NCBI GenBank assembly: GCA_903910385.1
Contig: CAIVZM010000078.1
Location: 1 to 40,958, forward strand
Source of the DNA: an uncultured Armatimonadota bacterium
Lineage (GTDB): Bacteria > Armatimonadota > Armatimonadia > Armatimonadales > Armatimonadaceae
DNA: 40,958 nucleotides
Direction of reading: 5' to 3'
Part shown: positions 18,906-26,364 of the stretch, piece by piece
Position numbering within the stretch: the first letter of the stretch is position 1
Layout of the letters: each line of letters starts with the position of its first letter
The notes under the pieces: model-generated
What the model was told of the DNA's origin: nothing
The model's database searches: none
The model's input: only the letters and a program-made list of their open reading frames with translations
Program-made: the position numbers and the translations under genes

Positions 18906-20978
18906 TTATTTGCTTCCGCCAACCAGCGCCTGAGCTGCACGGAAGAAGACTTCGGTATTGTCCATGACGCCGCTGAAGAGGATAGATCCTCGGCCGTAAG
19001 CGGACAGAACAATATCGGAAGCCGTATGGACAGCGGTTTCTCCCGGAACCTGACCGGTAATCTGGAAGGCTCCCGCCGTATCGCGGTTCAGCGGACCCGC
19101 CGGATAGTTGGGAAGCTTGCTGCCGTAGTTCAGCAGGCTCTGGCTATCGCGGAGCGGCAGGGGGTTGGTCAACCAGTCTTCGTTGCGGTCCGCGTTGCTG
19201 GCGTATCCGATCAACAGTTTTCGATCCGGATCGGTGGTTGTCGGGTAGCCATCGGAGTTGATGACATAGCGCGGAAAGCCTGCCAGATCGTACGTTCCTA
19301 CCAGCGGAACGCCCGTGACCGGGGACGTGTCGCGCAAAGCGTTCGCCCCGCCACCCAATCCCGCTCGTCGTTGCAATTCCACATTGGTAACGGTGGAAGC
19401 GCCGATCAGGTTGACGCCACCGCATTCATGGTCGGCGGTAACAACGATGAGCGTGTCCGGATTTTGATCTGCGAACGCTTTGGCGACAGCGATAGAACGG
19501 TCGAATTCGATAGCATCCAGAATCCATCGGTCGCTGTCCATGTTGTGCGCCTGCTTGTCGATGGAAGCGCCTTCCACCAGAAGGCAGAAGCCATTGGGGT
19601 TCTTCTTGAGAACATCCAGCGCTTTAGTGGTCATTTCGTCCAGCATCGGTTGGTTCGGGAAGCCATAGTCATCGACCACGAAGTTGCCGGTGTTGGGGTC
19701 TTTGCCACCGAGGTTACCGACCGTCGCATTGCGCCGTTTGGCGATTTTGTCCAGGGCGATATTCATATTGCCCATCGCGAAAAGACCGAGCAACCGGTTG
19801 GGAGTTCCAGCGGCGTCCAGGCTGTTCTTGTCGGAAGCGTACGTGAAGCCCGCCGCCGTGAAGGCGCTGATCAGGTTATCGTTCGGATTGACGGTTCCGG
19901 CATTGACTCCCCAACCGGTCACGATATCCTGCGGCAGGATATAGTCCGTCGCCGCCGTTCGGGAGGAACCGGCGGAAAGGTTGCCCGTCGCGCCAGTGTT
20001 GCCTGGCAGGAACCAGCGGCGACCGCCGCCCATCAGGACGCGCAGGTCAGCGTTCGGAACCGCTTCCAGAAGGAACTGATCGATGATTCCCGTTCCGGCG
20101 CCACGGTTACGAGTATGGATGGCGAAAGCGGCAGGGGTAGCGTCGAAGACATCCGCTGTGGTGACAATCCCCGTGGACTTGCCATATTTGCGGTGCATAA
20201 ACTCGCCCAGATATTCCACGCGAGGATCATCGAAGTCTTTAGATCCGTCCGGATCGGAACTGCCTCGACCCTGAGAGTCCGGGAAGACGCCTTCCTGATT
20301 GTTGTTCGCTTTGTTACCGGTGGAGTAACACGCCATACCCGGCGCGGAGTCGGTGACAATGGAGTTCAGGGAGGACGTTTCGATGATGCCGGTCATCGGG
20401 AAAGTATCCATCGTGAGCGGCGTGTTGGTCTTGCCCTGCGTCAGACCGGAAAGGACGTGGCGTGCGGCGGTGCGGTGGGCGATCCCCATGCCGTCGCCGA
20501 GGAAAATGATGACGTTCTTGGCGCGGCGTCCCTGCTGGGAAATCGACACAATCTCAAAGTTACCAGTCGCCGAGAACGTCTTGCCATCGCTCTGAGTTCC
20601 CGAAATGGCGAACGTGTGCACACCGGGCGTGGTATTACGATAGGCGCGAGCAGTAATGCTGAAGCGGTTGCTACCAATCGAGGTCGCCAGCGAAGCGCCC
20701 GGCGTCACCGAGACGGGGGAGCCATCGACCGTGAACTGAAAACCGTTCAGGGTAGTTCCGGCATCCAACTGCACGGTCGCCTGAAAGTCGAACCGCTGAT
20801 CGGGCAGAAATCGCGCCGTAATCGGTCCGTTCTGAGAACCGGTGGCGAATAAGCGGCTGGGAGGGTTCAGTGTCGTGATGGTGGGGTCCGCCAGGACGGA
20901 GCTTCCGGCAAGAGCGGGCAAGATGCCGGCTCCCCAGAGCGCTGCGAGACGCAATGCACGATACGTTAAGTCAGGCAT
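18906..20978 (-). CDS. Secreted alkaline phosphatase (PhoA family) with N-terminal Ig-like domain
   Basis: This 690-residue exported enzyme releases phosphate from organic monoesters. After the signal peptide (1-30) comes a beta-sandwich of about 115 residues (ARFLPDQRFDFQATVQL to TGNFEIVSI) that may bind polymer. The catalytic domain then runs from NVIIFLGDGMG (first metal Asp) through SIVTDSAPGMACYSTG, where the serine of TDS is the phosphorylated nucleophile, to TADHECGGVN with the metal-binding Asp-His. These match Pfam alkaline phosphatase. A PEP-CTERM gene follows 24 bases later and a secreted small protein precedes it by 82 bases. With the C-P lyase operon close by, it suggests phosphorus scavenging. 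A 608-codon open frame on the opposite strand (19026-20852) is a by-product of codon use. Confidence 0.94.
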   Translation of the reverse strand: MPDLTYRALRLAALWGAGILPALAGSSVLADPTITTLNPPSRLFATGSQNGPITARFLPDQRFDFQATVQLDAGTTLNGFQFTVDGSPVSVTPGASLATSIGSNRFSITARAYRNTTPGVHTFAISGTQSDGKTFSATGNFEIVSISQQGRRAKNVIIFLGDGMGIAHRTAARHVLSGLTQGKTNTPLTMDTFPMTGIIETSSLNSIVTDSAPGMACYSTGNKANNNQEGVFPDSQGRGSSDPDGSKDFDDPRVEYLGEFMHRKYGKSTGIVTTADVFDATPAAFAIHTRNRGAGTGIIDQFLLEAVPNADLRVLMGGGRRWFLPGNTGATGNLSAGSSRTAATDYILPQDIVTGWGVNAGTVNPNDNLISAFTAAGFTYASDKNSLDAAGTPNRLLGLFAMGNMNIALDKIAKRRNATVGNLGGKDPNTGNFVVDDYGFPNQPMLDEMTTKALDVLKKNPNGFCLLVEGASIDKQAHNMDSDRWILDAIEFDRSIAVAKAFADQNPDTLIVVTADHECGGVNLIGASTVTNVELQRRAGLGGGANALRDTSPVTGVPLVGTYDLAGFPRYVINSDGYPTTTDPDRKLLIGYASNADRNEDWLTNPLPLRDSQSLLNYGSKLPNYPAGPLNRDTAGAFQITGQVPGETAVHTASDIVLSAYGRGSILFSGVMDNTEVFFRAAQALVGGSK

Positions 20979-21060
20979 GATAGATCGTTACCTCAATCTT
21001 TCAATCAATAGAATGTGATAAGAGATGAGCAGGCCGCTTGCAGACCTTCCTTGCTTACGC

Positions 21061-21693
21061 TTACTTCGGTTTGCCCGCGCTATTCGTTTTTTCATTGTGG
21101 GCGGGCTTTTTCTGTGACGGAAGACTCGTTGTCTTTTTCGCGGTTTCAGAGACGGGTTTGTCTAAACTCAGGCGCACGAAGGAGATGGCATTCTCACCTT
21201 TTTCTTCCCGGTTCCCTATTTCGAGGGTTCCCGTAAGCAGGAGGGGACGATGCACACGAGGAACCGCCCGGTCCGGGGCATAAGGCAGGAAGACCCAGAC
21301 ATGGGTGGCGGGCAAATCGGCGAAACCCGCTTCGTCATCCTCGATATTGACGGGCGCCCCCGCGAGGATGAAGCGACCGGGAACCTCTTTTTCGCGGATC
21401 GCCATATAACCCGCGATGCGCACTTTTTTCCCCTGAAGCGCTTTGAGTTTGTCGGTGGGTTCGAGTCCATACGGACCGACCGGCGTCTTGAAGAACTCGG
21501 TGAATTTCAGTTCCGTAACGCCTTCGGGTAGGGGGGGAAGCGGCGCAAGTCCGGGGGACGCTTTTCCTGCGCTGAGCGAAACGCCCTGTGACGCCTGCGC
21601 CACAGCGGCATTCGGTGTCAGCAGGACACTCGCCCCCCCAAGAGCGACGATAGCGGGTAAGGAAATACTGATGTAACGCATACGGTGATGCAT
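21061..21693 (-). CDS. Secreted protein with DUF3299/OB-like core
   Basis: This exported protein has 210 residues from the ATG at 21693; a second ATG at 21681 is also possible and is better placed relative to AAGGA. A signal peptide ends near AVAQA. The core (about 65-175) has KLKALQGKKVRIAGYMAIREKEVPGRFILAG, then HVWVFLPYAPDRAVPRVHRPLLLTGTLEIG. This resembles the small OB-like domains of DUF3299-type proteins that bind metal or act as carrier-like adaptors. The tail is Lys/Ser/Thr/Pro-rich. It is encoded just upstream of the alkaline phosphatase on the same strand (82-base gap), so co-expression is likely. Function is unknown. Confidence 0.75.
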   Translation of the reverse strand: MHHRMRYISISLPAIVALGGASVLLTPNAAVAQASQGVSLSAGKASPGLAPLPPLPEGVTELKFTEFFKTPVGPYGLEPTDKLKALQGKKVRIAGYMAIREKEVPGRFILAGAPVNIEDDEAGFADLPATHVWVFLPYAPDRAVPRVHRPLLLTGTLEIGNREEKGENAISFVRLSLDKPVSETAKKTTSLPSQKKPAHNEKTNSAGKPK

Positions 21694-21811
21694 CCTTGAA
21701 TCTGTTGCGAATTGAGTCAACAGTAGAGGATAGCCCCGCTATATTAAATAGATTTTAAGAAAGGATTAAATCTATGTTAAGAAATGTCTACAGTCTTCTC
21801 TTTCTCCCGGT

Positions 21812-21840
21812 TTGACAACTCTTTCGCCTCATGATACGCT
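21812..21840 (+). promoter_or_regulatory. Promoter of split tRNA-fMet
   Basis: A perfect TTGACA -35 box (21812-21817), a 17-base spacer and TACGCT (21835-21840) preceded by a TGn extended -10 element. Transcription would start about 21847, five bases before the first tRNA nucleotide. Confidence 0.7.
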
Positions 21841-21902
21841 GATTGTGTTGACGCGGGGTGGAGCAGTTGGTAGCTCGTTGGGCTCAACCGCGAGGTCAAT
21901 TG

Positions 21903-22448
21903 TTGGATACAAAGCAAAAAGGCGATATAGCCGAGCAAGCAGCTATTCTTCAAGCATTGAAGTTTGGTTGGGGCGTTTTGAAACCAGTTGGAGACCGACT
22001 CCCTTACGATTTGGTCTTTGATGTGGACGGGACGCTAATTAAGATTCAGGTCAAGTATGCATGGTTTGATGGTGTACGCGGCAATTATGTTGTGGACAAT
22101 CGGAGAACCAAAACGAATCGAAGACAAATGCTTCGTTCGGCGTACAGAGAACAGGATTTTGACTTTGCAATCGCGTATATTGCTGACCGGGAATTGTTTT
22201 ACATTTTTCCGGTAGCGGTGTTCATCAGTTTCGCCAGTGAGATTCATCTGGTGGAAACAGACAGGCGTCAGAGGAAACCACGTTCCGCTGCGTACCGTGA
22301 CGCATGGCAATTGATTGAGCGTAGGGCTGCATATCGGGAAACCGGTATGCGAACATCTGTCGAATTCGGGGAAGCCTTTAGCGGGGTAATCCCGAGCCAA
22401 GCCTCAGAAACTGAGGAAGGTGTAGAGACTGAGTGGCAGACACCCTAA
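21903..22448 (+). CDS. Group I intron PD-(D/E)XK homing endonuclease
   Basis: This 181-residue enzyme should cut intron-less tRNA-fMet genes so that repair copies the intron in. Counting from the TTG at 21903, motifs are KGDIAE (E11), LPYDLVFD (D36) and IKIQVK (Q49 and K51), the PD-(D/E)XK core in the variant form with Gln. The conserved blocks GNYVVDNRRTKTNRRQM, FDFAIAYI, FYIFPVAVFISF, EIHLVE and RKPRSAAYRDAW also fit the intron-associated family. The frame is open back to a GTG inside the tRNA exon (21858), which cannot be a real start. GAGGT at 21892-21896 is a ribosome site 6 bases before TTG 21903. The last 22 codons lie inside the ribozyme core. Confidence 0.92.
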   Translation: MDTKQKGDIAEQAAILQALKFGWGVLKPVGDRLPYDLVFDVDGTLIKIQVKYAWFDGVRGNYVVDNRRTKTNRRQMLRSAYREQDFDFAIAYIADRELFYIFPVAVFISFASEIHLVETDRRQRKPRSAAYRDAWQLIERRAAYRETGMRTSVEFGEAFSGVIPSQASETEEGVETEWQTP

Positions 22449-22535
22449 CGGGACGGAAACGTCGCCGAGGGTGAAGAGACAGTCCAGACCAACAAACGGG
22501 CCTGATAGTCCGGTGGCGAAAGCCATAGTGGTAAG
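22381..22535 (+). ncRNA. Group I intron catalytic core (IC3-like)
   Basis: Hand-drawn elements in order: the GGTAATCCCGAGCCAAGC block, matching the conserved P/Q region of tRNA-Leu-type introns; a CCTCAG/CTGAGG hairpin (22402-22407 with 22411-22416); the R region GGTGTAGAGACTG; P7 formed by GACTG (22427-22431) and CAGTC (22480-22484); P8 as GACG-GAAA-CGTC (22452-22463); the S region GAAGAGACAGTCC; and a P9-type TGGC-GAAA-GCCA hairpin (22514-22525). Two GNRA tetraloops are present. A P3 pairing of 22383-22387 with 22442-22446 is possible. The subgroup is inferred by resemblance only. Confidence 0.88.
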
Positions 22536-22606
22536 CATAACCCAAAGGTCGCAAGTTCGAGTCTTGCCCCCGCACCCATTTGCGAGTTAATTCTAACTTG
22601 CTATCG

Positions 22607-22645
22607 AAAAAGGCGGAATCCGTATAAAGCGGATTCCGCCTTTTT
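22607..22645 (+). terminator. Perfect terminator after tRNA-fMet
   Basis: A perfect 16-base inverted repeat (22607-22622 with 22630-22645) closes on a 7-base loop. It ends in TTTTT on the plus strand and begins with AAAAA, so it can also stop the leftward phn operon, whose last stop codon is 38 bases further right. Confidence 0.9.
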
Positions 22646-22682
22646 CTTGTTTTAAGAAGTTGACTGAGGATCGAATAAGTCT

Positions 22683-23831
22683 CTAACCCGTCTGTAATGC
22701 CAGGTGACCCTGGCGCCAGAGGGTGCGAACGATGGGGACGCCTGCGTGTTCGCGGACGGAAATCAAATCGGCGCGGAGACCTTCGCGCAATGCGCCACGG
22801 TCGGTCAGACGGGCGGCGGCGGCAGGCGCTGTTGTGACAAGGTTTACGGCGCGATGCATCTGCCAGCCGTGTTCGCGGGCGACGCGAAATACCGCCGGAA
22901 GCAAGGCGCTCGGCGCGTAATCGCTACAAAGGCAATCGCCCAATTCCGCTCCGATCAAGTCCATCGCCCGGACGCCGGTTCCGGTGCTGCCGCCGCGTAA
23001 TATGTTGGGAGCGCCGACAATCGTGTGCATCCCTCGCTCTTTCGCCGCGCGCGCCGCCTCGAACGATAGCGGAAACTCGGAGATGGTCGCACCCTGTGAA
23101 TGGCGACGCTGAATTTTGGCGGCGTCTTCGTCATCATGGCTCGCCAGTGGGACACCGACGGAATGCGCATACTCCGCCATTTTTGCGCCATGCATTTCCG
23201 CGTCCTTCGCCTTCTCGATGCGCTCTTCGATGTATCGATTCACCTCCGCATCGCTCATGCCGCGCTTTTCCTTCAACCATTCCCGAATGCCGGTTGTGTC
23301 CTGATATTGTCCCTGCCCGGGGGTATGGTCGTTCAGGGAAATCAGAATGCAAACGCCTTCTTCCGTCAGGTTTTGTATATAGGGGAAAGTCGAGGGAACC
23401 GTCATTTCGAATCGGCAGTGAACCTTGTTATCGATCAGGGAATGATTGTTATAGGCATGAATGCGCTGAGCCAGTTCGAACATCAGGTTGGTGTTGCGGT
23501 ATTCATCATCATCCCCGTGAAAACCTATCGCATGGAACATGGTCGTGATCCCAGCGAGGGCGCACTTACGATCCCCCTGCGCAATGGCGAAATCCAGCGG
23601 GAGATTGGCTCTCGGACGTGGGCAGATTTCCTGCTCGATAGCATCCCCATGCAGATCGATCAGACCGGGCATGAGATAATCGCCGTGGACGGAAACTTCG
23701 GTGACGCCATTCAGGGAGACAGAGGAAGGGTTGATTGCCGCAATCTTGCCGTCTTCGATCAGGATGCAACCATCCGGGATTGTCTCCTGAGGCGTGACCA
23801 GAGTCGCTCCGGTGATATACGTTCGCATCAT
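22683..23831 (-). CDS. phnM: PhnM, alpha-D-ribose 1-methylphosphonate 5-triphosphate diphosphatase
   Basis: PhnM is a metal-dependent hydrolase that removes pyrophosphate from the ribose-phosphonate 5-triphosphate intermediate, giving the substrate of PhnJ. The amidohydrolase fold starts with a composite beta-sandwich (TLVTPQETIPDG...VSVHGDYLMPGLIDLHGD). The metal-binding H61-G-D63 is followed by QEICPRPRA, the PhnM version of the motif. Further in-family blocks are MFHAIGFHGDDDEYR, HCRFEMT, ISLNDHTPGQGQY, ASHDDEDA and SDYAPSALLPAVF. The start at 23831 has GGAG 7 bases upstream and overlaps the phnL stop as ATGA, giving 382 residues. It is the last gene of the operon. Confidence 0.95.
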   Translation of the reverse strand: MMRTYITGATLVTPQETIPDGCILIEDGKIAAINPSSVSLNGVTEVSVHGDYLMPGLIDLHGDAIEQEICPRPRANLPLDFAIAQGDRKCALAGITTMFHAIGFHGDDDEYRNTNLMFELAQRIHAYNNHSLIDNKVHCRFEMTVPSTFPYIQNLTEEGVCILISLNDHTPGQGQYQDTTGIREWLKEKRGMSDAEVNRYIEERIEKAKDAEMHGAKMAEYAHSVGVPLASHDDEDAAKIQRRHSQGATISEFPLSFEAARAAKERGMHTIVGAPNILRGGSTGTGVRAMDLIGAELGDCLCSDYAPSALLPAVFRVAREHGWQMHRAVNLVTTAPAAAARLTDRGALREGLRADLISVREHAGVPIVRTLWRQGHLALQTG

Positions 23832-24535
23832 GCCTTCTCCCATGTAACGCCGCCCCCGACGTGTATTTTTTCCTCCGCCAGCGCATCCATCAGTTCTGGA
23901 TCATGGAAAACGCCTAAAAGGGCTACCCCTTCCGCTTTGAGTCGTGCGATTTCTTCCACCATTTTCCGTGTTGATGCAGGGTCAAGACTGGCTGTCGGCT
24001 CATCCAGTAAAAGCAGGCGGGGACGAACGATCAGGGCGCGCGCCATGTTGACCAGTTGTCGTTCGCCGCCGGAAAAGGTCGCTGGAGGCAGGTCCCAGAG
24101 TCGTTGCGGCAGACCGATACGCTCCAGTGTTGCAGTCGCCTGATTCAGGGCATCTTCCGGCGTAATTTCTGATTGAATCAGCGGCTCGGCGACCGCTTTA
24201 CGCGCCGATTGACGGGGCAACGTGTGCAGAAACTGGCTGACGAACCGGATTTCCTTCCGGCGCAATTCCAGTGTTCGTTGATCGGATGCCGTCACCAGGT
24301 CAACGATTTCACCGTCCGTCGTATGAAACCAGCAATTACCGCCGCTGGGCAGATAGCGACGATAGATACATTTCAATATCGACGACTTTCCCGCCCCGGA
24401 CGCCCCGACCAATCCCGTGAAAGAGCCTGCCCGAACCGTCAGTGAGACATTATCGAAGGCATCGAATGAGGTTTGCGTTTCATGTAAAGTGAAACGTTTT
24501 TTTAGATTCCGAACCTCTAAAATAGTGGCGCTCAT
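23828..24535 (-). CDS. phnL: PhnL, C-P lyase ABC-type ATPase subunit
   Basis: PhnL is one of two ABC-type ATPases tied to C-P lyase. With PhnG, PhnH and PhnI it supports attachment of the phosphonate to ribose in place of adenine. The 235-residue protein has Walker A GASGAGKS (44-51), the signature FSGGERQLVNMARAL, and Walker B LLLLDEPTASLD. It has no membrane domain, as usual for the family. PhnL-type specific stretches are the CIYRRYLP block just after Walker A and IRFVSQFLHTLPRQSA before the signature. The gene starts 31 bases after the phnK stop and ends overlapping phnM by four bases. Confidence 0.94.
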   Translation of the reverse strand: MSATILEVRNLKKRFTLHETQTSFDAFDNVSLTVRAGSFTGLVGASGAGKSSILKCIYRRYLPSGGNCWFHTTDGEIVDLVTASDQRTLELRRKEIRFVSQFLHTLPRQSARKAVAEPLIQSEITPEDALNQATATLERIGLPQRLWDLPPATFSGGERQLVNMARALIVRPRLLLLDEPTASLDPASTRKMVEEIARLKAEGVALLGVFHDPELMDALAEEKIHVGGGVTWEKA

Positions 24536-24566
24536 AGACGTATTTCGCTTTCCAACCGCGTTGCGC

Positions 24567-25397
24567 CTAAAGCGACGCCCCGATCAATTCCTGGGTGTAG
24601 GCGTGCTGAGGGTCTTCGAGAATCTGATCCATCAAGCCGGTTTCGACGACCTGCCCGTAACGCATGACGATACAATGGCTCGCCAGCATACGGGCGACAC
24701 CGATATCATGCGTCACCAGCAGGATGCTCAGGCGCGTTCGCTGATGTAGCTCCAGAATCAAGTCCAGAATTTTCGCCTGTACCGACAGGTCAAGGCTGGT
24801 TGTCACTTCATCCAGAAAGAGGACGCAGGGTTCGGTTGCAAGAGCGCGGGCGATCTGAACGCGCTGTTGCATCCCCCCGGAGAATCCTGCCGGAGATTCG
24901 TCCATGCGTCGTGTCGGGACGCCGGTGCGATCCAAAAGAAGTGTTGCCCGTTCACGGATGTTTCCGTAATTCCGCTCACCGCTGACCAGAACGCGTTCCG
25001 CGATATTCCCGCCCGCTGATATTCGAAAGTTCAGTCCCTGATGCGGATTTTGAAAAACGATTCCGAACTCTCTGTCGCGCAGTCGCCGACGTTGCGCTGG
25101 GTCAAGCTCTCCCAGTTCGATCATCTCGCCGGATGGATTGCGGTACAGCGCTGATCCGGTAGCGCCGAAATCCACCCCGTAGAGGTATCGTAACAGCGTC
25201 GTTTTTCCGCTACCCGATTCTCCGATGACGCCCAGTATCTCGCCTTTCGGAACGCGCAGATTCACGTTGTTGAGCGCGACCACAGTTCCGCAGTCGGGAC
25301 AGATGTTCGTGCCCGCCGCCGCCCCGGTTTTTTCGAGGCAACGCGGACAGCGGACGCCATAGAAACGTGTCAGATTTTGAGTTTCAAAAACGGTCAT
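24567..25397 (-). CDS. phnK: PhnK, C-P lyase ABC-type ATPase, with zinc-ribbon-like insertion
   Basis: PhnK is an ABC ATPase that docks on the PhnG2H2I2J2 core and is needed for C-P bond cleavage in the cell. The 276-residue protein has Walker A GESGSGKT (59-66), signature FSGGMQQRVQIARALA and Walker B VLFLDEVTTSLD. Unusually, between the first strand (FETQNLTRFYG) and the Walker A strand lies CPRC (17-20) and CPDC (33-36), with a 12-residue link. This spacing fits a small zinc ribbon or other metal site. It is absent from the E. coli protein as I know it. The gene starts 13 bases after phnJ. Confidence 0.93.
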   Translation of the reverse strand: MTVFETQNLTRFYGVRCPRCLEKTGAAAGTNICPDCGTVVALNNVNLRVPKGEILGVIGESGSGKTTLLRYLYGVDFGATGSALYRNPSGEMIELGELDPAQRRRLRDREFGIVFQNPHQGLNFRISAGGNIAERVLVSGERNYGNIRERATLLLDRTGVPTRRMDESPAGFSGGMQQRVQIARALATEPCVLFLDEVTTSLDLSVQAKILDLILELHQRTRLSILLVTHDIGVARMLASHCIVMRYGQVVETGLMDQILEDPQHAYTQELIGASL

Positions 25398-25410
25398 TAT
25401 TCAATGAGGT

Positions 25411-26364
25411 TCAGAGCGGAATAGGTGAACGGAACTCGACTGCGCCAGAAGGAACGGGGGAGACGATCTCCGCATTTTTACGGCAATACTCGGTGTCACT
25501 GCACATGAATGTCGTCGCGCCGTCTGACAGGTAGATTTCATCGAGAAAAGACCCTGTGGAACCGCATCGGGCGCAAGCGATACGTTCTCCGTTCCTGTCC
25601 AGAAAGGATTCAACAGAAAAACGCTGGTCTGAAAATTGGATCGGCGTCACCTCGGTATAGGGTGGGACAGCAAAGATTTTCTTTTCGCGACCGGCGCCGA
25701 ACAGGTTGAGATTGTGGGACATGCTCAGACGTGGCACATCCCAGCGCGGAATAGGCGATGGGGTCATTGCGTAGTGTCGATTGACCTCCACGGGATAGCC
25801 CGCGCCGGATGTAATGCGCCCGTTCCGAACCACATCTTCATACAATGCGACATACAGTTTGGCGTAGTCCGTCTCTCCGTGCAACTGAACGCGGCGTTCC
25901 TCGTTCATCTCGACGCCGCCCAGAATATCCGGGTAGGGAACCTGAAATACCAGAACCTGATGTTCCCCCAGGATCGTTTCCGGAATACGGTGGCGGGTCT
26001 GCACTATGGTCGCCTCATCTGAGTCCTCTGTAGTGTTCGCGCCGGGGCAGACTTTCTCAATCAGGCTTCGAAGACTTACAGCGTTGACAGAATCATCACT
26101 TCCCTGATCGATGACTTTCAGGGTGTCGCCCGGTCCGATGATCGAGAGAGTGATTTGTAGACCGCCAGTACCGAATCCGCGTGCGATGGGCATTTCACGG
26201 GAAGCGAAAGGGACCTGATAGCCGGGAATCGCTACCGCCCTCAGACAGGCGCGGCGGATTTCCTTTTTCGCCGCTTCGTCCATCAAGCCATAACTGTATT
26301 GGCGCGATGCTTCCGACGTCTCCCCGTCGTTGAATGAGGCGTCCTGCGTGAATGTATCGGTCAT
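25411..26364 (-). CDS. phnJ: PhnJ, radical SAM carbon-phosphorus lyase
   Basis: PhnJ breaks the C-P bond with an S-adenosylmethionine radical, releasing the hydrocarbon and a cyclic ribose phosphate. The 317-residue protein has the atypical cysteine set C264, C267, C288 and C294 (Cx2C-x20-Cx5C, one residue shorter in the middle than E. coli), in CARCGSTGSFLDE and MCSDTEYC. The three first should hold the 4Fe-4S cluster and C294 matches the thiyl-radical cysteine. G48 in AIPGYQ matches the glycyl-radical glycine of E. coli (G32). Other blocks are TGGLQITLSIIG, DQGSDDSVNAVSLR and LFGAGREKKIFAVPPYT. An AAGGGA site precedes the ATG, 9 bases after the phnI stop. Confidence 0.96.
   Translation of the reverse strand: MTDTFTQDASFNDGETSEASRQYSYGLMDEAAKKEIRRACLRAVAIPGYQVPFASREMPIARGFGTGGLQITLSIIGPGDTLKVIDQGSDDSVNAVSLRSLIEKVCPGANTTEDSDEATIVQTRHRIPETILGEHQVLVFQVPYPDILGGVEMNEERRVQLHGETDYAKLYVALYEDVVRNGRITSGAGYPVEVNRHYAMTPSPIPRWDVPRLSMSHNLNLFGAGREKKIFAVPPYTEVTPIQFSDQRFSVESFLDRNGERIACARCGSTGSFLDEIYLSDGATTFMCSDTEYCRKNAEIVSPVPSGAVEFRSPIPL

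Follow-up and report, generated by a model that had tools for sequence, protein, structure and literature searches.

The window analysed here, a stretch of 40,958 nucleotides that makes up the whole of contig C78 in a MAG-like draft Armatimonadota genome (4.47 Mb in 84 contigs, 95% complete), carries at 21852-22578 a tRNA-fMet gene interrupted by a group I intron with a homing endonuclease of its own (Table 1). ARAGORN in default (intronless) mode reports no tRNA in the window, and with introns allowed it recovers a tRNA-Met(cat) with a 651-nt intron. The splice junction falls between U33 (21884) and C34 (22536), the last intron base is G, and alignment places the junction of all related introns between the same two bases. 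Joined exons form a 76-mer that folds into a cloverleaf and, read from the sequence, bears the features of a bacterial initiator tRNA, namely the C1xA72 mismatch at the 1-72 position, the G29-G30-G31:C39-C40-C41 anticodon stem, the A11:U24 pair and the CAU anticodon. Within 18906-26364 of the window, the split tRNA is flanked by an alkaline phosphatase gene on one side and, on the other, by an operon for phosphonate C-P lyase that includes PhnJ, two ABC proteins and a PhnM-like protein.

Table 1. Features of the interrupted tRNA-fMet locus (window coordinates)
Feature	Position	Strand	Basis
Possible sigma-70 promoter, TTGACA, 17 nt, TACGCT	21812..21840	+	Seen by eye, weak; absent from consensus scan output
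5' exon of tRNA-fMet, positions 1-33, ends GGGCU	21852..21884	+	ARAGORN with introns; alignment with relatives
Group I intron, 651 nt, terminal G 22535	21885..22535	+	Rfam, ARAGORN, alignment, fold
GAGGT, possible ribosome-binding site of the endonuclease	21892..21896	+	Sequence; putative
Homing endonuclease ORF, 181 aa, TTG start at 21903, TAA at 22448, I-Ssp6803I family	21903..22448	+	PF11645, 2OST, residues
GGGC, proposed internal guide pairing with G31-C32-U33	22324..22327	+	In all relatives; putative pairing, just 5' of P2
P2 hairpin	22329..22350	+	Sequence; covaries in relatives
P3, 5' strand (3' strand 22435-22440)	22356..22361	+	3 pairs changed on both sides
P4 (22366-22371 with 22390-22395) and P5 (22374-22376 with 22385-22387)	22366..22395	+	All pairs kept in 15/15 sequences
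P6 and P6a	22396..22421	+	P6a: 6/6 pairs changed on both sides
P7, 5' strand (3' strand 22481-22484)	22427..22430	+	Invariant GACU/AGUC
P8 (22442-22446 with 22468-22472), contains the endonuclease stop codon	22442..22472	+	15-core alignment
3' exon of tRNA-fMet, C34 to encoded CCA	22536..22578	+	BLAST, ARAGORN, alignment
Intrinsic terminator 3' of the tRNA, 18 pairs and T run, strong	22606..22646	+	Terminator scan

The Rfam model Intron_gpI (RF00028) is matched over its entire length at 22302-22500 (61.7 bits, E=2e-13), and search with the group I model gave no further intron of this group in the genome. In the alignment of 15 cores, taken from the window, a second genome of the same order (G017), Cyanobacteria, Patescibacteria, Kapaibacteria and Hymenobacter, helices P3, P4, P5, P6, P6a, P7 and P8 are paired in 99.2% of cells, against only 27-50% for slid versions of the structure. 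Changes on both sides of a pair were observed in 36 cells with a shuffle mean of 10.1 (sd 3.6) and affect 11 pairs versus 4.1 in shuffles, the covariation score being twice that of shuffles. Covariation is present in P3, P6a and P8; invariance of P4, P5 and P7 across the 15 cores is consistent with the structure and makes covariation in these helices not assessable. The core from P3 to P8, including the guanosine site in P7, is that of a group I intron, presumably of subgroup IC3 as expected for tRNA introns. Other hallmarks of the group, that is U33, the conserved GGGC before P2 and the terminal G, occur in all aligned relatives, with a putative U:G pair at the 5' splice site. GGUC after GAG, near that site, was discarded as a candidate guide for P1, since several relatives have no equivalent, while GGGC before P2 is universal; with the latter serving as the guide, the endonuclease would lie in the P1 loop. 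Self-splicing is known for cyanobacterial tRNA-fMet introns according to the passage of PMC3610870 that cites Biniszkiewicz 1994, and by analogy the window's intron may be expected to splice itself.

The intron-borne ORF matches PF11645 (PDDEXK_5) with E=1.1e-51 and 175 bits (cut-off 26) and I-Ssp6803I (PDB 2OST) with E=4.4e-66 and about 70% identity. Residues E11, D36, Q49 and K51, which we take to be the active-site positions in the numbering of the I-Ssp6803I structure paper, are present in the window's enzyme and conserved in all intact relatives, the exceptions being broken copies. Endonucleases of the I-Ssp6803I type are tetramers cutting the anticodon region of tRNA-fMet. An AlphaFold model of the window's enzyme has a mean pLDDT of 46, too poor for structural inference. 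GTG at 21858 was rejected as an alternative start, since every relative aligns from the TTG listed in Table 1. Most enzymes of in-intron relatives end near codon 150, in P2; the G017 frame extends as far as P7, and that of the window reads through P3-P6 as far as P8, so that the final ~40 codons share their sequence with the internal guide, P2, P3, P4-P6, the 5' strand of P7 and P8. The initial annotation had described a 651-base insertion between U33 and C34, an initiator cloverleaf restored by exon joining, a group I core and a PD-(D/E)XK homing endonuclease of the I-Ssp6803I class. All four descriptions stand, and the covariance-model search that it had proposed, where failure of the core to fold would have counted against the reading, found the core. 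The observation was thus right, and its interpretation is supported for the most part.

The same gene in Synechocystis PCC 6803 contains an anticodon-loop intron with the enzyme I-Ssp6803I inside it (Biniszkiewicz 1994; Bonocora and Shub 2001; PDB 2OST), 655 nt in length with 150 codons (PMC1995217). The window's counterpart has 651 nt and an enzyme of the same family at the identity given above, but differs in belonging to a non-cyanobacterial phylum, in its TTG start, in an ORF ~30 codons longer that runs across the ribozyme core to P8, and in the target stem, which is TTGGG/CCCAA instead of TCGGG/CCCGA. Short introns of Nostocales (about 244 nt, mostly exactly so; L053-L062 and others) share the insertion site and the core, and their enzymes are 67-77% identical to that of the window but are encoded outside the tRNA, most often ~90 bp downstream, and end in a tail that is a ribozyme relic. 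Introns of bacterial tRNA-Ile2 and tRNA-Leu(UAA) (PMC8450103; PMC3984707) are likewise of group I and situated in the anticodon loop, yet they interrupt other tRNAs and mostly lack an endonuclease, with no PDDEXK_5 enzyme seen in them in this analysis.

Taken together, a mobile group I intron would have entered the sole gene for initiator tRNA in this bacterium. Precursor transcripts would fold as a group I ribozyme and excise the intron, joining U33 to C34 and giving mature tRNA-fMet, and the PD-(D/E)XK endonuclease would be translated from unspliced or excised RNA. This enzyme would cut tRNA-fMet genes that lack the intron, its target spanning the anticodon stem and loop, and the intron would spread when the break is repaired from a copy that has it (homing). 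Splicing, DNA cleavage and homing we infer by analogy with cyanobacterial relatives in which they have been tested. As a whole, the explanation that a self-splicing homing intron was laterally acquired and resides in the sole tRNA-fMet gene appears to us highly probable. Points against it include the TTG start and the passage of the endonuclease frame across the ribozyme core, which implies competition between translation and folding.

An enzyme inside the tRNA-fMet intron was found, besides the window and G017, in a Kapaibacterium (L063), in Uhrbacteria (L064, L066) and further Patescibacteria (L114, L115, L116) and in Cyanobacteria (L127, L128, L131, L139, L141), with a truncated in-intron copy in Hymenobacter (L072). 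Thus the arrangement, which the initial annotation had ascribed to cyanobacteria, is indeed known there but is not exclusive to them, the same-site element occurring in at least 4 phyla, with Cyanobacteria, Patescibacteria and Bacteroidota besides the window's own. Of 291 genomes in the window's own phylum, 22 carry a group I intron anywhere, and only the window's genome and G017 carry one in tRNA-fMet; an uninterrupted anticodon arm is seen in 250 of the 291 (185 of 194 good genomes), and within the family the tRNA-fMet gene is uninterrupted in 10 of the 11 other genomes. Such sporadic occurrence, in disagreement with host phylogeny, is that of a mobile intron. What the window holds is therefore a known kind of mobile intron in a further host lineage and phylum; group I introns in Armatimonadota tRNA are the subject of no paper in the literature searched. 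A phage or plasmid vehicle was considered and rejected, as 50,697 phage and 72,556 plasmid records contain no close relative of the enzyme, phage matches being 27-40% identical. Elsewhere in the phylum, other CAU tRNAs (L082 1451-1813 in G036; L103 350-669 in G017) carry endonuclease-free group I introns, apparently at the same U33/C34 site, and a tRNA-Leu(UAA) from the window's family (L097 146-982, G007) has a 752-nt group I intron, seemingly with an HNH-like ORF.

Identity of the window's enzyme amounts to 69-77% with cyanobacteria, 68% with Kapaibacteria, 66% with Uhrbacteria and 70% with G017, and RpoB of the same genomes gives 63.5-65%, 60%, 57% and ~68% (a partial protein in G017), respectively. 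The enzyme is thus more conserved across phyla than RpoB, which argues for lateral movement. Exon stems, in turn, follow the host, reading GTTGGGC in the window as in most of its family and GTCGGGC in G017 as in its own; since the exons keep stem letters of the host lineage, the intron moved into resident genes and not with a whole tRNA gene. The alternative of an old, vertically inherited intron lost in most of the phylum, as opposed to a recent lateral arrival, might appeal to the location of both carriers in one order and to AU tests, in which a common origin for the phylum's two copies is not rejected (p=0.09 for the enzyme, p=0.65 for the intron). We consider it unlikely in view of the uninterrupted gene in nearly all of the family and in most of the order and phylum, and because the window's enzyme is no closer to that of G017 than to cyanobacterial ones, while RpoB is closer within the order than to cyanobacteria. 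The phylogeny proposed at the outset was computed for both enzyme and intron. The enzyme tree sets apart a clade of free-standing Nostocales enzymes (99/98), and the rest of its backbone, like that of the intron tree, lacks resolution; nesting of non-cyanobacterial introns among Nostocales in the intron tree was given no weight, because the search had missed a better tree, and a cyanobacterial clade is not rejected by the AU test (p=0.47). Judged from these comparisons, lateral arrival of the element in the window's lineage is supported, with donor and direction left undecided by the trees, so that the earlier suggestion of transfer between phyla holds; with at least four phyla involved, the donor need not have been a cyanobacterium.

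The genome of the window yields 47 hits to the tRNA model and 45 genes typed by ARAGORN. Two other CAU tRNAs are among them, one elongator Met-like and one Ile2-like (isotype judged from sequence), and both have a paired 1-72 position and lack the initiator GGG:CCC stem. Neither these searches nor BLAST with the spliced sequence or a pattern allowing 3 mismatches revealed another tRNA-fMet in the assembly, which is 95% complete; hence the gene count asked for initially comes to one, and that one is split. Since the sole tRNA-fMet found is interrupted, translation initiation in this bacterium presumably depends on splicing of the intron. Such dependence on one intron-split tRNA-fMet is not new: reliance on it has been reported in cyanobacteria, and the tRNAscan-SE 2.0 study lists 36 genomes in which an fMet or Ile2 gene had gone undetected owing to group I introns (PMC8450103). 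Also present in the window's genome are a tRNA-like sequence of 115 nt whose anticodon arm is odd (L048, G000:C18:28916-29030) and a fragment of a tRNA 3' half (L049, G000:C8:9458-9517).

Given the incompleteness of the assembly and its 84 contigs, a second tRNA-fMet could be missing from it, and one may imagine that an unassembled gene serves the cell and that the window holds a dead or decaying intron in a pseudogene, the more so as endonuclease remnants and truncated copies do exist in relatives (L072, L142, L143). We regard this as very improbable: both exons are intact and restore all initiator features, neither the ribozyme core nor the 181-aa ORF is damaged, and the intact-gene pattern finds no intact copy in nine of ten split-gene relatives and just a two-mismatch hit in the tenth. 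In the pattern search of ten relatives whose enzymes are close, an intact gene was found in Arsenicibacter, Calothrix brevissima gave the one hit with two mismatches, and the rest gave none. That the ORF is a free gene overlapping the tRNA and the split an assembly artefact, as the MAG-like draft and the adjacency of free-standing relatives to tRNA-fMet genes might suggest, is next to inconceivable and for practical purposes already refuted by the conservation of the same architecture at the same base, which recurs independently in 11 or more other genomes, with named isolates or separate assemblies among them.

Besides the enzyme-bearing intron of the window, relatives preserve other states of the association. 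The distance of ~90 bp between the Nostocales tRNA and its enzyme grows in Cylindrospermum (L053 700-1500) to ~800 bp occupied by other genes. C-terminal tails of the free-standing enzymes, for example CVCSPVSFGEAGF (L062) and KFEEFLGDIIPIQAQ (L069), resemble the same-frame translation of the G017 ribozyme core, CACSPVKFGEAAGGVIPSQAS. At the DNA level the L062 tail aligns with the core from P2 through P4 ungapped, with 33 of 43 bases identical. Of 16 tails tested, 11 score above at least 99% of dinucleotide shuffles, and in most of these cases none of ~120 other segments in the tail loci scores as high; eight alignments that were inspected are all ungapped and in the same frame. At the 3' ends of the free-standing enzyme genes L053-L062, L068, L069 and L133-L135 the relic covers P2-P4, and it reaches P6 in L069. 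As in-frame relics of the ribozyme core, the tails imply that free enzymes of Nostocales descend from an intron-borne one reading into the ribozyme; the enzyme has evidently left its intron there, retaining a translated piece of ribozyme as its tail. In Arsenicibacter (L070 1359-1911) and in two cyanobacterial loci (L142 1247-1660, L143 1250-1650), an intact intronless tRNA-fMet has behind it an endonuclease gene that is broken or reduced to a fragment, which gives these loci the appearance of post-loss states.

Association with tRNA genes extends to distant PDDEXK_5 relatives. Among 20 from bacteria (L076-L080, L112, L117-L126, L146, L147, L149, L152), 16 lie within 200 bp of a same-strand tRNA gene found by ARAGORN, and a tRNA detected by Rfam beside L078 brings the total to 17, with 1-5% expected by chance as estimated from tRNA density. 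Across these and the phage cases below, the adjacent genes encode tRNAs for Ser, Thr, Tyr, Arg, His, Ala, Asn and Pro, and no group I intron accompanies any of the distant enzymes located at tRNAs. In several cases the tRNA begins 3-12 nt after the stop codon; a 19-bp copy of the 5' part of the tRNA precedes the gene in L076, and in L078 the last 28 bp of the tRNA are repeated behind the gene. Phage relatives (L171-L175) are found in or near tRNA genes in 5 of 6 instances, and the last base of the gene touches the first base of a tRNA in two phages, Klebsiella phage K54_rec4 and Vibrio phage River4. This pattern points to tRNA genes in general as the target of the family. We lean slightly towards regarding PDDEXK_5 as a wide mobile family that spreads mostly without introns, settling at tRNAs and sometimes restoring the tRNA end, in which the tRNA-fMet element would be one branch joined with a group I intron and the Nostocales enzyme would have left again with its ribozyme-derived tail.

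In the usual model free endonucleases invade introns. Reportedly, it was Bonocora and Shub who proposed in 2009, for the making of mobile introns, the step opposite to the exit considered here, and the ribozyme-derived tails offer direct sequence evidence of the reverse, that is exit from the intron. Relatives of the element, from which more can be learned than from the copy in the window, record the enzyme inside the intron, outside with a ribozyme relic, beside an empty gene and decayed, and with several states on record the direction of such moves becomes testable. An intron known mainly from cyanobacteria is now found in three or more further bacterial phyla, among them the Patescibacteria with their tiny genomes, and in the window's bacterium the start of all protein synthesis would hang on an RNA enzyme.
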